A stretch of 64,000 nucleotides of DNA from Reyranella massiliensis 521 (lineage in GTDB: Bacteria; Pseudomonadota; Alphaproteobacteria; Reyranellales; Reyranellaceae). The stretch is from positions 4,344,045-4,408,044 of the forward strand of contig NZ_HE997181.1 of assembly GCF_000312425.1 (NCBI RefSeq). The letters run 5' to 3'. The first letter of the stretch is position 1; each line of letters opens with the position of its first letter. The position numbers were made by a program, and so were the translations under genes. The notes below the pieces were generated by a model. The model was given only the letters and a program-made list of their open reading frames with translations, searched no databases and was not told the origin of the DNA. This document shows positions 6,560-16,690 of this stretch, one piece after another.

Positions 6560-7534
6560 GTGCGACGCCGCGCCCTGATTGCCGGTACGGCCCTGTTGCC
6601 GCTGGCTTTCAGTGCGGCGGCGCAGGACACCTTTCCCTCCCGGCCGATACAGATGATCGTGCCTTTTCCACCCGGCGGCGTCGCCGACATCACCGGCCGG
6701 CCGACAGCGCATGTGATGGGCAAGCTCCTCAAACAGTCTGTCGTGGTGCAGAACAAGCCCGGCGCCGGTGGCTCGGTGGGCGCGGCGCAGGCCGCACGGG
6801 CCGCGCCGGACGGTTACACCATCCTGATGGCACTCTCGTCGATCTCGGTGTTGCCGGCGGCGGATCGCCTGCAGGGCCGCACGCCAGCCTACGAACTCGA
6901 CCAGTTTGCGCCGATCGCCCTGATCAGCGCCGACCCCACGGTCCTCGTGGTGCGCGAGGACGGGCCCTACAAGACGTTGAAGGAGCTCGTCGACGCCGCG
7001 AAGGCGCGGCCCGGCACCATCAACTACGGCTCCTCAGGCGTCTACGGCACTCTGCATGTTGCGATGGAGATCTTCGCGAGCGCCGCCGGCATCAAGCTTT
7101 TCCACATTCCCTACCAAGGTGGCGGCCCTGCCGTGGCAGCACTTCTCGGAGGCCAGATCGATGCGCTGGCCTCGGGACCGTCGGCGGCAATCGGCCAGAT
7201 CAAGGCGGGTAAGATGCGCGCCCTCGCCGTCTGGGGCGACAAGCGGCTTGCGTCGCTGCCCGACGTGCCCAGCATGAAGGAGCTGGGCTACGATGCCACC
7301 TTCTACATCTGGTCCGGCCTATTCGCTCCGGCAGCCACGCCGCAATCCGCCATGACCAAGCTGCGCGACGCGGCCCGTCGCACCGCCGGGGATCCCGAAT
7401 TCAAGGAGGCGATGGCCAAGGTCGAAACGCCGATCGCCTATCTCGACGCACCAGAGTTCAAAATTTTCCTGGACCATGATTCTCAAAGACTTCGGGTCGC
7501 TGTCGAACGCATCGGAAAAGTACCGGAAAAGTAG
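6560..7534 (+). CDS. Bug-family tripartite tricarboxylate-type substrate-binding protein
   Basis: 324 aa with a GTG start just after the stop of the previous gene. The signal peptide MRRRALIAGTALLPLAFSAAA is followed by the family hallmarks: FPSRPIQMIVPFPPGGVADI, VVQNKPGAGGSVGA, the YGSSGVYGTLHVAMEIFA stretch and HIPYQGGGPAVAALLGGQID. Bug proteins bind carboxylates and similar small acids in the periplasm. Their TctA/TctB membrane partners are not encoded nearby, as is common for this greatly expanded family. Confidence 0.92.
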   Translation: MRRRALIAGTALLPLAFSAAAQDTFPSRPIQMIVPFPPGGVADITGRPTAHVMGKLLKQSVVVQNKPGAGGSVGAAQAARAAPDGYTILMALSSISVLPAADRLQGRTPAYELDQFAPIALISADPTVLVVREDGPYKTLKELVDAAKARPGTINYGSSGVYGTLHVAMEIFASAAGIKLFHIPYQGGGPAVAALLGGQIDALASGPSAAIGQIKAGKMRALAVWGDKRLASLPDVPSMKELGYDATFYIWSGLFAPAATPQSAMTKLRDAARRTAGDPEFKEAMAKVETPIAYLDAPEFKIFLDHDSQRLRVAVERIGKVPEK

Positions 7535-9055: not shown

Positions 9056-10051
9056 GTGTCCAAGCCAATGATCGTCAATCGTCGTCGTTTTGCCGCTCTT
9101 GCGGGTGCCGCCACGCTGGCCGCGCCGATGGTCGCCCCCGGGATCGCTCGCGGCCAGACACGCTGGAAGCCCGAGAAGCCCATCACGGTCTACAACCCCT
9201 TTGCCGCCGGTGGGGTGACCGACGTGCATGTCCGCCTGCTGGGCGAGACGGTCACCAAGATCCTGGGGCAGCAGGTCGTCGTCGACATCAAGGCCGGTGC
9301 GGCCGGCACGCTGGCGCCGGCGATGCTCCTCAACGCCAAGCCCGACGGCCAGACGCTGGCCATCATGTCCATCAACAGCCTGCGCTATCCGCACTACCAG
9401 CAGACCAACTGGGACCCGCTGAAGGATTTCACCTACATCACCGGCCTGTCGGGCTACACGATGGGCATTGTCGTGAAGTCCACGTCGCCCTGGCAGACAC
9501 TCGAGGACATGATCGCTGCCGGCAAGAAGGAACCGGAGAAGTACAACTACGGCACCAGTGGCATCGGTGGCACTGGCCAGCTCATGATGATCGAAGTCGA
9601 GCAGGCAACCGGCACCAAGTACACGACTGTCCCCTACAAGGGTGGCGCGGAGTGGATGCAGGCGTTGCTGAGCGACCAGGTGCACTTCCTGGCCGACGCC
9701 GCGCAATGGGCGCCATTCGTCGACGACGGCAAGTGCCGCATCCTCGCCATGGCGACCGAGAAGCGCATCCCGCGCTACAAGGATACGCCGACGCTGATCG
9801 AGCGCGGCATCAACGTCGTGGGCCAGAGCCCGTACGGCCTTGTCGGCCCCAAGGGCATGCCGCCGGAGATCGTCGATTCGATCTATCAGGCCTTCAAGCA
9901 GGCGTCGGCCGAACCGAAGGTGACGGAGTATCTCGCCAAGTTCATCCAGGTTCCCTGGGACAAGAACCCGGCCGAATACCGCGCCTTCGCCGAGAAGTAT
10001 TACGTCGACGTGAAGCCGTTGCTGATCAAGGCGGGCCTCGCCAAGTCCTAA
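9056..10051 (+). CDS. Bug-family tripartite tricarboxylate-type substrate-binding protein
   Basis: 331 aa starting at GTG 9056, chosen because GGGAGGA lies 8 bases upstream; the open frame continues far to the left through unrelated DNA. The signal peptide contains an RRR stretch (VNRRRFAALAGAATLAAPM), so Tat export is possible. The mature protein shows the Bug pattern: WKPEKPITVYNPFAAGGVTD, KAGAAGTLAPAMLLNAKPDG, NYGTSGIGGTGQLMMIEVE and VPYKGGAEWMQALLSDQV. It precedes two Lin0512 genes and a GST gene in the same direction with short gaps, so its ligand may be processed by them. Confidence 0.92.
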   Translation: MSKPMIVNRRRFAALAGAATLAAPMVAPGIARGQTRWKPEKPITVYNPFAAGGVTDVHVRLLGETVTKILGQQVVVDIKAGAAGTLAPAMLLNAKPDGQTLAIMSINSLRYPHYQQTNWDPLKDFTYITGLSGYTMGIVVKSTSPWQTLEDMIAAGKKEPEKYNYGTSGIGGTGQLMMIEVEQATGTKYTTVPYKGGAEWMQALLSDQVHFLADAAQWAPFVDDGKCRILAMATEKRIPRYKDTPTLIERGINVVGQSPYGLVGPKGMPPEIVDSIYQAFKQASAEPKVTEYLAKFIQVPWDKNPAEYRAFAEKYYVDVKPLLIKAGLAKS

Positions 10052-10078: not shown

Positions 10079-10417
10079 ATGGCGCCGAAGAAGATGGCTC
10101 TCGAGATCGGCATGGGCACCGACATACGCGGCGGCGACTACACGAAGGCTGCCGTGCGGGCGCTGCGCGATGCGCTGTGGCACAACTCGCTCACAGTCGC
10201 CACGGCACTGGGAAAGTCGAGCGACGACATGCAGGTCGAAGTCCTGATCGGCGTGCCGAAGCCCGATCAGGTCGACACCAAACAGGTGCTCGCCGTGCTG
10301 CCGCACGGCGCCGGCACGGTGAAGGTCGTCGAAGGCGGCCTCGAGATTCCCAACGAAGCCGGCACGGACAAGACGGTGATCGCCCAGGCAGCGGCCATCG
10401 TCCGGCTCGACCTGTAG
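10079..10417 (+). CDS. Lin0512 family protein, copy 1
   Basis: 112 aa. The sequence LEIGMGTDIRGGDYTKAAVRALRDAL followed by VEVLIGVPKPDQVD and LPHGAGTVKVVEGGLEIPNE matches the Lin0512 family, small proteins of unknown function named after a Listeria gene. The fold is probably a compact alpha/beta domain. It lies 27 bp after the Bug-type binding-protein gene and 14 bp before its own paralogue, so the two likely form a hetero-oligomer. Confidence 0.85.
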   Translation: MAPKKMALEIGMGTDIRGGDYTKAAVRALRDALWHNSLTVATALGKSSDDMQVEVLIGVPKPDQVDTKQVLAVLPHGAGTVKVVEGGLEIPNEAGTDKTVIAQAAAIVRLDL

Positions 10418-10431
10418 GCGGAGGCGGCACC

Positions 10432-10776
10432 ATGGCGGCGAAACGCGTTATCCTCGAACTCGGCACCGGCAACGATCTGCACGGCGGCGACTACACCAAG
10501 GCGGCCCTGCGCGCGGTGCAGGATGCCCTGCACCATTCCTCGCTGGCGATGATCCGGACGCTCAAGATCAATCCCAAGACCGACATGTTCGTCGATGTCA
10601 CGATCGGCGTGCAGCAGCCGGACAAGGTCGATGCCGAAAAGGTCCGTGCTTCGCTACCGCACGGCATCGTCACGGTGAAGGTGGTGAAGGGCGGCCTCGA
10701 CATTGCCGATCCCGACCACAACGATCCTGCCGTGATCGCCAGCGCCGCGGTCGCCGTCAGGCTGGAGTTGCCCTGA
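10432..10776 (+). CDS. Lin0512 family protein, copy 2
   Basis: 114 aa with a GGAGGCGGCACC leader before the ATG. It shares most motifs with copy 1: ILELGTGNDLHGGDYTKAAL, VDVTIGVQQPDKVD, LPHGIVTVKVVKGGLDIAD. The Asn/His pair in GNDLHGG is closer to the usual Lin0512 GxDxHGQ motif than copy 1, which has Arg there. The divergence suggests an old tandem duplication with two distinct subunits. It is in the same apparent operon as the binding protein, copy 1 and the GST gene. Confidence 0.85.
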   Translation: MAAKRVILELGTGNDLHGGDYTKAALRAVQDALHHSSLAMIRTLKINPKTDMFVDVTIGVQQPDKVDAEKVRASLPHGIVTVKVVKGGLDIADPDHNDPAVIASAAVAVRLELP

Positions 10777-11602: not shown

Positions 11603-11827
11603 TTAGTTCTGGGCCCGACGCCCCATGAAGAGGAGCCCGGCACCGGCCACCACGGCGATCACGCCGGCAATGGTCGGAACCGGGATGCTGCGCTGCTCGT
11701 CGGCCGTGACCTTGAGCGGGCCAGCGTCGACGATGGTCTTGCGCTCTGTGAACGAGATGTTGTCGATCGCCAGACCGGCGACACCGATCGCAATCAGCAG
11801 AACTCCGAAGATTGTCAGCGGCTTCAT
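11603..11827 (-). CDS. Small two-helix membrane protein
   Basis: 74 aa starting at the ATG at 11827, which follows GGGAG. Two hydrophobic helices (about residues 4-21, LTIFGVLLIAIGVAGLAI, and 52-69, TIAGVIAVVAGAGLLFMG) flank a polar loop with the FTERKTIVDAGPLKV motif common in small envelope proteins of unknown role. The hydrophilic part between them probably faces the periplasm. It lies 76 bp downstream of the selenoprotein stop on the same strand and could be read through from that operon. The GST gene converges on it. Confidence 0.75.
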   Translation of the reverse strand: MKPLTIFGVLLIAIGVAGLAIDNISFTERKTIVDAGPLKVTADEQRSIPVPTIAGVIAVVAGAGLLFMGRRAQN

Positions 11828-11903: not shown

Positions 11904-12428
11904 TCAGGCCCTGAGCAGCATGCTTCTGCCCTGCTCGATCGCTGTGCGCGCCATCGCGCGCAGTTCGTCGTCGGTGGCGCTGCTGACCGGATGGCCGATC
12001 TGGGCGAAGCGATAATCCGGCATCCCCAGCACGCGGCTCATCATCTCGGCCGCGCTGGCGAACCGGGTCGTCATCACGCTGAAGGCGGGAACCTGAAGTC
12101 TTTCAGCCGTTACGGAGTCGTGCAGACTGCACGATGAACAGCTTCCTCAATCCCCCAGGCCTGAGACGACGGCATCCCAGCCTTTGATCTCCGCTACGAT
12201 ATGGGCATCGGCCGGCGCGCTATAATTCGACTTGGTGCGGCTTACGACCCTGGCGACGCCGTACTCTTCACGCAGGATCTGATCGAGGTGCGTGAAGAAG
12301 CCCTTGGTGCCTTCCTTGCCGTTGGAGATGAAGCCCACGGTCTTGCCTTGGAGCGTGTCGAGACGTGGCGCGAGCTGGCCAAGTGGAGCAGCCGTTCCGG
12401 GCGTGGGGTCGAGAACACGGAAGGTCAT
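11904..12428 (-). CDS. UGSC family selenoprotein (selenocysteine encoded by TGA at 12147-12149)
   Basis: 174 residues including selenocysteine at position 94. The frame reads normally for 93 codons (MTFRVLDPTPG..., GKTVGFISNGKEGTKGFF, then WDAVVSGLGD), meets TGA, then continues in frame as GSCSSCSLHDSVTAERL and on to a TGA at 11904. U-G-S-C after a GxGD strand end is the signature of the UGSC family, whose members carry Sec or Cys here. A SECIS-type hairpin begins 12 nt after the UGA. Downstream codons keep high GC third positions and family-like sequence (MPDYRFAQIGHPVSS). The U-x-x-C pair suggests thiol/selenol redox chemistry. It follows the 351-aa CxxC protein gene by 28 bp. It needs selA, selB, selC and selD elsewhere. 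Confidence 0.93.
12118..12134 (-). promoter_or_regulatory. Bacterial SECIS hairpin for selenocysteine insertion
   Basis: On the minus strand TCGTGCA-GTC-TGCACGA forms a perfect 7-bp stem with a GUC loop. The loop starts 19 nt after the last base of the UGA codon (12147). Known bacterial SECIS elements lie in the coding region just after UGA, with a small apical loop carrying G/U near its start that SelB binds. Position, loop and coding context all fit. Confidence 0.85.
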
Positions 12429-12456
12429 GGCAATCCTCTACTCCTAGATGTCTCTG

Positions 12457-13594: not shown

Positions 13595-14509
13595 TCAATC
13601 GGCACGCGCCCATTCGCGCCGCAGGAAGGCCAGCAGGCCGGATGCCGCCGGTGTCGGCTCCCGCTCGCGCAGGGCGATCAGGCCAAGGCGATGGACAAGG
13701 CGCGGTTCGCTGAGCGGCACCGCGCGCAGGCCACGCGCCAGCGGTCCGCGCGTGGTGCCTCTTGGCACGAGACCGACGCCCACGCCTGCCCCGACGAAGG
13801 CAAGCATGGTGGCAAGCTGGGTAACGACGACCATCTGGCGCAGCGGCACGCCAACCGTCGCCGCCGCGGCATCGATGGTGCGGCGGGTGCGCGAGCCGGT
13901 CGGCAGGGCCACGATCGTCTCGCTGGCGAGATCGGCCAGACTGACCTTTCGCCGTCCCGCCAGCCTGTGACGCGCCGGCATGACCGCGCAGAACGTTTCA
14001 CGCCCGAGTGCAGTGCCGACGACGAAGTCAGGCAGTTCGTCGACATAGCCGATCCCAAAATCGGAGACGCCGCTCCGGACATCTTCGAGCACCGTCGCGT
14101 GCACGCCTTCGCGGATATGGATCTCGACGCCTGGACGGTCGGCGCGATAGGCCGCGACAATCGACGGCAGCCGCCCACCGGCGACCGACATGATCGTCGA
14201 CAAGACGACGAGACCGCGCCTCTCCTCGGCAACCTCACGGACGCTCTGCACCGTAATGCCGAGATCGTTCAGCATGCGCTCGGCGACCGCCGCAAACTCG
14301 CGGCCTGCGGCCGTGATCTGGACCCGCCGCGTACTGCGGTCGAACAAGCGCACGCCGAGGGCCGTCTCGAGCCGCTTGATCGCCCGCGTCAGCGTGGGTT
14401 GCGACAGGCGCAGCCGCGCTGCCGCGGCGACGAAGCTGCCATACTCGGCAAGAGCCAGGACGGCCTCGAGCTGGCGGGCACTGATGTCTGGTAGAGTTGC
14501 CCGCTGCAT
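13595..14509 (-). CDS. LysR family transcriptional regulator
   Basis: 304 aa, typical of LysR regulators. The N-terminal helix-turn-helix (about residues 8-66, LEAVLALAEYGSFVAAAARL and LSQPTLTRAIKRLETALGVRLF) precedes a two-lobed effector domain. LysR proteins usually activate a catabolic operon when its substrate or an intermediate binds. Unusually, the gene is not divergent but sits inside the operon, 5 bp after the flavin monooxygenase and 82 bp before the CxxC-protein gene. It should control the promoter before the binding-protein gene, an internal promoter, or both. Confidence 0.92.
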   Translation of the reverse strand: MQRATLPDISARQLEAVLALAEYGSFVAAAARLRLSQPTLTRAIKRLETALGVRLFDRSTRRVQITAAGREFAAVAERMLNDLGITVQSVREVAEERRGLVVLSTIMSVAGGRLPSIVAAYRADRPGVEIHIREGVHATVLEDVRSGVSDFGIGYVDELPDFVVGTALGRETFCAVMPARHRLAGRRKVSLADLASETIVALPTGSRTRRTIDAAAATVGVPLRQMVVVTQLATMLAFVGAGVGVGLVPRGTTRGPLARGLRAVPLSEPRLVHRLGLIALREREPTPAASGLLAFLRREWARAD

Positions 14510-14514
14510 CAGCC

Positions 14515-15603
14515 TCAGGCCGCCAGCATGCGCTCGCGATTACGCTCTCGCAGGATCGGCATGACCCATTTGCCGAAGCGCTCCGCTTCCTCGTCGTGCA
14601 GGTAGCCCGACAGGCAGAAGGAGTGGCAGCCGAGGTCGATGAACTTCTGCAGCGTATCGGCGCACTGCTCGGGGTCGCCGACGATGGCAATGCCTGCGCC
14701 GGGCCGGACCTGGGTGATGCCGGTCCACAGATGCGGCTCGATCGTCTCGCCGATCGCGGCCAGTTCGCGCACGCGGCGGTTGGCCTCCGACGTCGCGAAA
14801 TGCTGCTTCACGAACTGCTTCTGGCCTTCGCTGGCATGTTCGACCAGCCCATGGGCAAACTCCCAGGCCTCTTTCTCGGTCGGCCGGCAGACGATCTGCA
14901 GGCGCATGCCGAAGCCGATCTCGTTCTCGCGGCCGTGCTGCGCCGCCATCGACTTGATCTCGGCCATGTTGGCGCGGATGCGATCGTAGGTGTCGCCCCA
15001 GAAGAGGTGCACATCCGAATGCTTGGCCGAGATTTCCCAGGCCTGCTTGGAGCCGCCGCCGAGATAGAACTTCGGATAGGGCTTCTGCAGCGGATAAGGC
15101 CGGATCTGTGCCCCCTTCAACTGATAGAACTTGCCATCGAAATGCACCGGGCCGCGCGTGGTCCACAGCGCCTTCAGGATCGAGACCTCCTCGTCCATGA
15201 TCTCGTAGCGCTCTTCCTTGCCCCACTTGATGCCCTCGGCGGCATTCTCGGTTTCGCTCTGGCCCGCGATCAGGTTGATGCAGATGCGGCCGCCCGAGAG
15301 CTGATCGAAGGTCGTGATCATCTTGGCCAGCAGCACCGGATTGATGTAGCTCGGCCGCGCCGCCACCAGCATGCGCATCGACTTGGAGCGCGCCACCATC
15401 ATGGCGCTGGCGATCCAGGCCTCCCAGCAGGCGGTCTGCACCGGCACCAGCATGTATTCGAAGCCGGCCGCCTCGGCGGCATCGACGATCTTGTCGAACA
15501 GCGGCATCGACGGCGCCACCTGGGCGCTCGCCAGCCCATAGGCCGTGGTGTCGCCTGCGGTCGGCAAGAACCAGCCGAACTCCAGACGCTTTTCTTTACT
15601 CAT
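14515..15603 (-). CDS. Luciferase-like (LLM class) flavin-dependent monooxygenase, SsuD-like
   Basis: 362 aa, close to alkanesulfonate monooxygenase SsuD. The TIM-barrel markers are present: FGWFLPTAGD at the start, AARPSYINPVLLAKMITTFDQLSGGRICINLIAGQ in the middle (FMN phosphate and Ser/His region), KFYLGGGSKQAWEISAKHSD, and the C-terminal GDPEQCADTLQKFIDLG. These enzymes use reduced FMN and oxygen to cleave C-S or other bonds, or to oxidise ketones and amines. No flavin reductase gene is nearby. Placement between a binding protein and the selenoprotein genes suggests a sulfonate or related substrate. The substrate is inference. Confidence 0.9.
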   Translation of the reverse strand: MSKEKRLEFGWFLPTAGDTTAYGLASAQVAPSMPLFDKIVDAAEAAGFEYMLVPVQTACWEAWIASAMMVARSKSMRMLVAARPSYINPVLLAKMITTFDQLSGGRICINLIAGQSETENAAEGIKWGKEERYEIMDEEVSILKALWTTRGPVHFDGKFYQLKGAQIRPYPLQKPYPKFYLGGGSKQAWEISAKHSDVHLFWGDTYDRIRANMAEIKSMAAQHGRENEIGFGMRLQIVCRPTEKEAWEFAHGLVEHASEGQKQFVKQHFATSEANRRVRELAAIGETIEPHLWTGITQVRPGAGIAIVGDPEQCADTLQKFIDLGCHSFCLSGYLHDEEAERFGKWVMPILRERNRERMLAA

Positions 15604-15616
15604 CTCTACTCTCCCA

Positions 15617-16582
15617 TCACTCCGGATCGATCCCGGCTGCCTTGACCAGCATCGCCCATTTTTCCTTCTCCGCCTTCATGAAAGCGCGGATCTGATCCGG
15701 CGCCATCGGCTCGGGTTCGATCGAGATCGCCCGCAGCCGCGCCGCCGTTTCCGGTTCGGCGACGATCTCCGACACATGATGGCCGATCTTGCTCACCACA
15801 TCGGTCGGCGTGCGCGCCGGCGCCACGACCACGAACCAGGCATCGAGCGCGAAGGCGCCAAGCCCGGCTTCCGCGAAGGTCGGCACATCCGGTATCAGCG
15901 GCGAGCGCTTGCCGGAAGCCACGACCAGCGCTTTCAGTTTGCCCGCCTTGAACTGCGGCAGACCGGTGCCGACATCGATGAAGGTCATATCGATCTGGCC
16001 CGAGAGCACATCGGCCATCGCCAGCGGCGCTGCCTTGTAGGGCACATGTACGAGTTCCGTCCCGCTGCGTTGAGCAAGCGTCGTCGAGATGACGCGCGCC
16101 GACGGCGTGCCGGCCCCGGAGGTTAGTGGCGGCTTGGCCGCCTTTGCCCGCGCCACGAAGTCCGCGAGGCTGGCAATGCCGGAGTCCGCCCGCACTGCCA
16201 GGGTAAACGGGATCGAGCCGCAAAAGCCCGTCGGCGCGAAGTCGGCCAGCGAATCATAGGGCACTGCCTTCATCAGATTGGGATTGCCGGCGTGTGTCGC
16301 CGCAGTCGCCATCATCAGCGTGTAGCCGTCTGCGGGAGCGCGGGCGACGAAACCACCGGCGATGGAACCACTGGCACCGGCCTTGTTGTCGACGATCACC
16401 GGCTGGCCGAGCCGTGGCGACAGTCGCTCCGCAAGGATGCGCGTGAGCGTGTCGGTCGCGCTGCCGGCCGTATAGGGCACGACGATCGTCAGTGGTTTGG
16501 CGGGCCACGCTTGGGCGCGCGCGGCAAAGCCGGCCGATGCGAGGCCGAGCCCAGCGAGAGCAGTGCGGCGAGTGAGTGACAT
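15617..16582 (-). CDS. Bug-family tripartite tricarboxylate-type substrate-binding protein
   Basis: 321 aa from the ATG at 16582; the open frame upstream of this has no family sequence. The start MSLTRRTALAGLGLASAGFA is a Tat-like or Sec signal. Family marks are WPAKPLTIVVPYTAGSATDT, VDNKAGASGSIAGGFVARA, HVPYKAAPLAMADVLSGQID and IPDVPTFAEAGLG. It is the first gene of the operon that ends with the UGSC selenoprotein, so its ligand is the best clue to that pathway's substrate, probably an organic acid. It is divergent from the gamma-glutamyltransferase-like gene with 108 bp between starts, likely holding both promoters. Confidence 0.92.
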   Translation of the reverse strand: MSLTRRTALAGLGLASAGFAARAQAWPAKPLTIVVPYTAGSATDTLTRILAERLSPRLGQPVIVDNKAGASGSIAGGFVARAPADGYTLMMATAATHAGNPNLMKAVPYDSLADFAPTGFCGSIPFTLAVRADSGIASLADFVARAKAAKPPLTSGAGTPSARVISTTLAQRSGTELVHVPYKAAPLAMADVLSGQIDMTFIDVGTGLPQFKAGKLKALVVASGKRSPLIPDVPTFAEAGLGAFALDAWFVVVAPARTPTDVVSKIGHHVSEIVAEPETAARLRAISIEPEPMAPDQIRAFMKAEKEKWAMLVKAAGIDPE

Positions 16583-16690
16583 GGCTGCATTTAAACAAGC
16601 GCGGGACAGAATGTGCAATTCGCTCTGGTGACGGCGTTCCGAAATCGGCACGATCCATCCCTTGTGCTCAAACGGGGGAGAAATAGAGGG

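Follow-up and report, generated by a model that had tools for sequence, protein, structure and literature searches.

Does the in-frame TGA at codon 94 of a short gene in Reyranella massiliensis 521 end a 93-residue protein, or is it read as selenocysteine (Sec) in a longer one, and if so what might that longer protein do? The gene lies on contig NZ_HE997181.1 in the window analyzed here, a continuous stretch of 64,000 nucleotides. It starts on the minus strand with an ATG at 12428-12426 and runs for 93 sense codons to the TGA (12149-12147), after which come GGA AGC TGT (Gly-Ser-Cys), 77 further codons and a TGA terminator at 11906-11904. The initial annotation had taken this reading frame for a hidden selenoprotein of the UGSC family, and its start, internal TGA (12147-12149), stop (11904) and length of 174 residues all match the sequence (Table 1).

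Table 1. Features of the UGSC locus (positions are those of the window).
Feature	Position	Strand	Basis
UGSC-family selenoprotein gene	11904..12428	minus	174 codons including Sec94, stop included in the coordinates; PF24696 E 4e-46 on the read-through product; homologue alignment
In-frame TGA, codon 94, predicted to be read as Sec	12147..12149	minus	TGA in 80/80 named homologues; Cys in G200, G551 and the G002 fusion
Putative bacterial SECIS hairpin, UCGUGCA-GUC-UGCACGA, 7 bp	12118..12134	minus	Pair conservation, Ser101 codon; altered in Cys homologues
GAGG, likely ribosome-binding site, 6 nt 5' of ATG	12435..12438	minus	Read from the sequence
Partner gene NB351, 351 residues	12457..13512	minus	Homologue adjoining UGSC in 70/80 named loci; five genome copies
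LysR-type regulator	13595..14509	minus	Pfam HTH_1 and LysR_substrate; 16/80 loci, close relatives only
Luciferase-like (FMN) monooxygenase	14515..15603	minus	Pfam Bac_luciferase E 9e-58; 17/80 loci, close relatives only

The family assignment was borne out. The read-through protein matches the Pfam UGSC family (PF24696) with 157.7 bits, well above the curated cut-off (25 bits), over positions 2-170 of 172; with 169 of the 172 positions aligned, the match takes in the whole domain. The 93-residue part alone scores 58 bits. The UGSC motif occupies residues 94-97, and position 94 aligns with U or C in homologues. A small gene just downstream of UGSC (11603-11827) encodes a 74-residue, possibly membrane protein and is present in 16 of the 80 homologous loci described below.

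The open stretch beyond the TGA is in itself weak evidence, because open frames of at least 80 codons follow 209 of the 1458 TGA triplets (14%) in the window, whose GC content is 65%; the length of the frame was accordingly dropped as an argument. Its codons are another matter: compared with 11 relatives, and leaving out the hairpin discussed below, those past the UGA gave pN/pS values of 0.11-0.39, indicating purifying selection. Homologues were then sought in 84,980 species genomes with a query limited to the region beyond the Sec codon, in order to avoid a bias towards TGA, and the best 80 loci were examined. All 80 of these best named loci have TGA at the Sec position, and they range over Alpha-, Beta- and Gammaproteobacteria, SAR324, Actinobacteria, Acidobacteria and Chloroflexi; the nearest is from Reyranella (94% across the region beyond Sec). 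When this genome and 60 relatives were searched, 38 of the 61 were found to carry UGSC. An in-frame TGA falls inside the match in all but one of the approximately 145 UGSC copies listed for these 38 genomes, and it stands at the Sec column in the 33 copies that were extracted. These include the four UGSC genes of R. massiliensis itself, each with one in-frame TGA. That the TGA is a real stop, giving a 93-residue protein or marking a mutational lesion or a sequencing error in the gene, is what formal translation by table 11, and only that, would have us believe. With the same codon in 80 independent named homologues and all four copies in the genome, selection acting on the codons beyond it, and the sel genes present, we regard a real stop as exceedingly improbable.

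Can this organism decode UGA as Sec? The initial annotation had called for a search for selA, selB, selC and selD, and all four are present in the 5.79-Mb genome. The tRNA-Sec scores 75.4 bits and has, according to ARAGORN, a UCA anticodon; selB (454 bits) and selA (556 bits) are located within 20 kb of it, with fdhE after them, and selD (288 bits) is found elsewhere. Since the tRNA-Sec model also matches ordinary tRNAs weakly (all 14 controls at E 0.001), scores of about 50-53 bits were taken as background and those of at least 58 bits as real tRNA-Sec. A true tRNA-Sec (71-79 bits) was found in all nine sampled TGA-bearing genomes that are at least 90% complete, and 18 of the 20 additional genomes from which named loci came gave a match of at least 58 bits. 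One genome that is 77% complete (G048) has TGA-containing UGSC copies yet no tRNA-Sec match of that strength.

Some homologues are Cys forms. The alignment that had also been suggested showed homologues aligning across the TGA, with Cys in its place in two genomes: the G200 copy reads DCGSCTSC, and the best tRNA-Sec score there is an unconvincing 51.5 bits; the G551 copy reads HCGSC, and this genome has no tRNA-Sec match at E 1e-8. A fused UGSC form with Cys occurs in another member of the genus (G002). That UGA is instead read by some other tRNA, for example as tryptophan, has nothing in its favor and can be given next to no credence: the UGSC gene itself terminates in TGA, genomes lacking a convincing tRNA-Sec have Cys in place of UGA and a changed hairpin, and tRNA-Sec, selA, selB and selD are all present here. 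Insertion of Sec at codon 94 is strongly supported and, judged on these sequence comparisons, almost certain; the UGA would be decoded by SelA, SelB, SelC and SelD to give the 174-residue protein.

In bacterial SECIS elements the apical loop begins with a G. The window gene has a hairpin with a 7-bp stem shortly 3' of the UGA, starting 12 nt past it, and the GUC loop, with G first, begins 19 nt past it. This hairpin, which lies within the coding sequence, would direct Sec insertion. All seven pairs are kept in 96 of 103 genes and six in the other seven, and the Ser101 codon is AGT in every one of the 103, compared with 67 of 458 Ser codons (15%) further downstream. In a paralogue (L013) where Cys-Ser-Leu has become Trp-Ser-Phe, a double change from C-G to G-C preserves the stem. 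Among 26 diverse sequences 98.9% of cells are paired, against 58% at best for slid structures, and two pairs show changes on both sides; these values are to be read with the limits that four of the seven pairs never vary and that 10 of 500 shuffles reach them. Cys homologues have lost at least two of the pairs and do not use AGT for Ser101. Folding energy was tried as further SECIS evidence and rejected: the mean shift is weak (z -0.96, versus -0.16 for a control region), and the hairpin of the window gene shows no gain in stability over synonymous recodings (z +0.3). As the window hairpin is not unusually stable, the case for a SECIS rests on conservation of codon choice and pairing and, as far as an alignment can tell, it is the choice of codons that maintains the hairpin.

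Recoding of UGA is as a rule incomplete, and this would favor a scheme in which the 93- and 174-residue forms are both made and functional, their ratio being set by selenium supply. Such a scheme is very unlikely, given that the Cys homologues (L176, L227 and L228) retain the full-length form and that the 93-residue piece is without the active site. As a full-length product, the window gene is almost certainly a genuine UGSC selenoprotein. It is by itself an ordinary new member of an already described family and, UGSC being named in both Pfam and NCBIfam, not a new kind of selenoprotein.

The gene next to UGSC says more about a possible role. It encodes an unnamed protein of about 350 residues, for which we coined the name NB351, and it stops 28 nt short of the UGSC ATG on the same strand. 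NB351 homologues occur in 70 of the 80 named loci, as a rule directly upstream of UGSC; at one locus (L118) the homologue lies about 2.5 kb from UGSC on the opposite strand. In four of the ten loci without NB351 (L080, L106, L111 and L127) there are fewer than 500 bases of contig upstream. R. massiliensis has five NB351 copies, all beside UGSC, with two in tandem at one UGSC copy; the others have 31-38% identity to the window copy. Since all four UGSC copies have NB351 alongside, the pair duplicates together. When 21 genomes were tested, the eight alphaproteobacterial ones that carry UGSC all proved to have NB351 as well, and the 11 that lack UGSC had none; in the other two (G302 and G309, from the phylum of G262) NB351 is present and adjoins UGSC in the stretches fetched. 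Moreover, the two domains are fused at L160 and L162-L164, where a single frame runs through the UGA, and at L161, where the fusion has Cys instead of Sec. Co-occurrence, co-duplication and fusion make it highly probable that UGSC and NB351 form a pair.

Some NB351 loci are unusual in other respects. G309 has 24 NB351 matches; the seven stretches fetched (L218-L222, L225 and L226) have UGSC-like domains beside NB351, most with TGA at the Sec position, and one of them (L219) has two UGSC-like domains with neither Sec nor Cys. A conjugative IncP plasmid, p2-T1 of Acidovorax sp. T1 (L229), carries the UGSC/NB351 pair, the NB351 match having no listed gene in the record, and on a plasmid of the haloarchaeon Natrinema caseinilyticum (L227) a Cys-form UGSC precedes an NB351 homologue and a DUF6282 gene.

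Sequence searches with NB351 found no relatives in Pfam, NCBIfam or PDB. Its invariant residues include T26, D27, G28 and C176. Two leads were set aside: a structure search gave three matches with E below 0.001, to fumarate hydratases, with TM of about 0.3 or less, and a profile match between UGSC and NB351 was weak (22 columns, 5% identity).

Conservation of the cluster beyond NB351 is mostly antisense noise. A thioredoxin-reductase-like (TrxB-like) gene nevertheless recurs beside the pair or within a few kb of it (L047, L177 [paralogue 4], L108, L112, L114, L160-L164 and L224) and is present in the same locus at L118; none was seen beside the window copy of UGSC. The gene order on an Arthrobacter plasmid with a Cys form (L228) is trxB, trxA, NB351, UGSC, and at L108 it is NB351, UGSC, TrxB-like, selA, selB. 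Either or both of selA and selB are also near UGSC at L101, L112, L114, L118 and L217, and in one genome (G585) the tRNA-Sec lies about 0.5 kb from NB351. Other neighbors are a CaiB-type gene (13 loci) and an amidohydrolase-like gene (nine loci), both named by eye from sequence. The window also contains a tandem pair of Lin0512-family genes (10079-10417 and 10429-10776) and three tripartite tricarboxylate-type substrate-binding receptors (6560-7534, ~9244-10051 and 15617-16672), the second of these by resemblance only and the other two confirmed by Pfam TctC.

What kind of protein is UGSC? A likely thioredoxin-like fold is assigned to it in the UGSC passages of PMC2398784, where a thiol oxidoreductase acting as a general redox protein is suggested; the UxxC redox motif and the TrxB-like neighbors agree with this. 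Profile comparison by hhalign, however, gave a probability of 2 (score 19) against thioredoxin, which is the level of unrelated families (eight others scored at most 20.5), versus a probability of 93 (score 51) against GrdB, the Sec subunit of glycine reductase, taken alone, with Sec aligned on Sec. The predicted structure (pLDDT 87, pTM 0.83) has a Rossmann-like alternation in which the third main strand leads to a helix that begins with Sec94, and no thioredoxin is among its top structural matches. A thioredoxin-fold general oxidoreductase is thus unlikely. Against solved structures the model gave generic alpha/beta matches only (TM about 0.5 or less), and sequence search found no credible relative of solved structure.

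The kinship of UGSC with GrdB also appears when GrdB and PrdB-like proteins are pooled (probability 90.6, score 47, again Sec on Sec); PrdB-like proteins alone gave a probability of 62 (score 36), and 40 column shuffles scored at most 21. These profile comparisons suggest that UGSC is a remote homologue of the Sec domain of GrdB and of PrdB-like proteins, which we consider likely. The relationship is probably one of remote homology and not of membership in PF07355 (GrdB/PrdB), as PF07355 itself gave no match up to E 10 in the 23 UGSC members scanned. This genome has neither a PF07355 gene nor a PF09338 (GrdE/PrdA-type) gene. NB351 was also considered as a GrdE homologue, which the profile comparison does not support (probability 0.1, no resemblance). 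Since GrdE and PF07355 genes are missing from this genome and NB351 is unlike GrdE, the chemistry of UGSC may differ from that of glycine reductase. Two other genomes of the same class have GrdB/PrdB-like proteins with Cys (VPNCPVCHQ; L048 and L049).

We propose that UGSC and NB351 probably make up a two-protein redox enzyme, most likely a reductase fed by thiols, in which UGSC would be the Sec subunit and NB351 a substrate-binding or structural partner. By analogy, the Sec94 selenolate would attack the substrate, Cys97 would resolve the product, and a thioredoxin or thioredoxin-reductase-like protein would restore reduced UGSC; this chemistry is offered as a possibility and quite tentatively. 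A somewhat better case, still short of an expectation, can be made that UGSC and NB351 represent an unrecognized class of two-subunit, thioredoxin-fed selenoenzyme, related to GrdB and without a GrdE-type partner, that would reduce or cleave small organic substrates and in some lineages sits on selA/selB islands. For the locus as a whole we hold with good confidence that the best explanation is a Sec-decoded UGSC protein paired with the 351-residue partner in a GrdB-related, probable redox enzyme.

UGSC is described in PMC2398784 as among the commonest selenoprotein families in aquatic metagenomes, and a 2026 review (PMC13188914) lists it, in the part bearing on UGSC, among families whose functions are largely uncharacterized. 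Standard gene calling truncates UGSC genes at the UGA; on the Acidovorax plasmid p2-T1, for instance, the annotated end of a 'hypothetical protein' coincides with the Sec codon. What is added here is the pairing with NB351, the recurrent TrxB-like neighbor, the selA/selB context and the likely GrdB kinship, which together provide a concrete hypothesis for UGSC function. The keyword passages of PMC2398784, PMC13188914 and PMC9312934 make no mention of the kinship or the pairing, and silence in such passages is no proof of novelty for either.

How, then, does the locus compare with known systems? With the UGSC family (PF24696; NF041046, 'UGSC family (seleno)protein'; 'UGSC-containing protein' of the GOS survey, as named in PMC2398784) the window gene shares full-length homology, the UGSC motif with Sec and a SECIS downstream, and the family has Cys forms in some genomes. 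There is no difference in kind; with U written as C, the window protein scored 115.3 bits against the NCBIfam equivalog NF041046, below its cut-off of 125 bits, and is therefore filed under PF24696 and not under that equivalog. The UGSC/Unknown_1 fusion mentioned in PMC2398784 resembles L160-L164 in joining UGSC to a domain of unknown function, and Unknown_1 can be set beside NB351 by that description of the fusion only. Compared with GrdB/PrdB-like proteins (PF07355), UGSC is shorter, has no PF07355 match and has in NB351 a partner unrelated to GrdE. Both groups nonetheless share a UGxC that comes after a strand and leads into a helix, with a GIP-like turn and then an HP motif further on, and TrxB-like genes stand near some UGSC loci, as they do at the GrdB locus L130.
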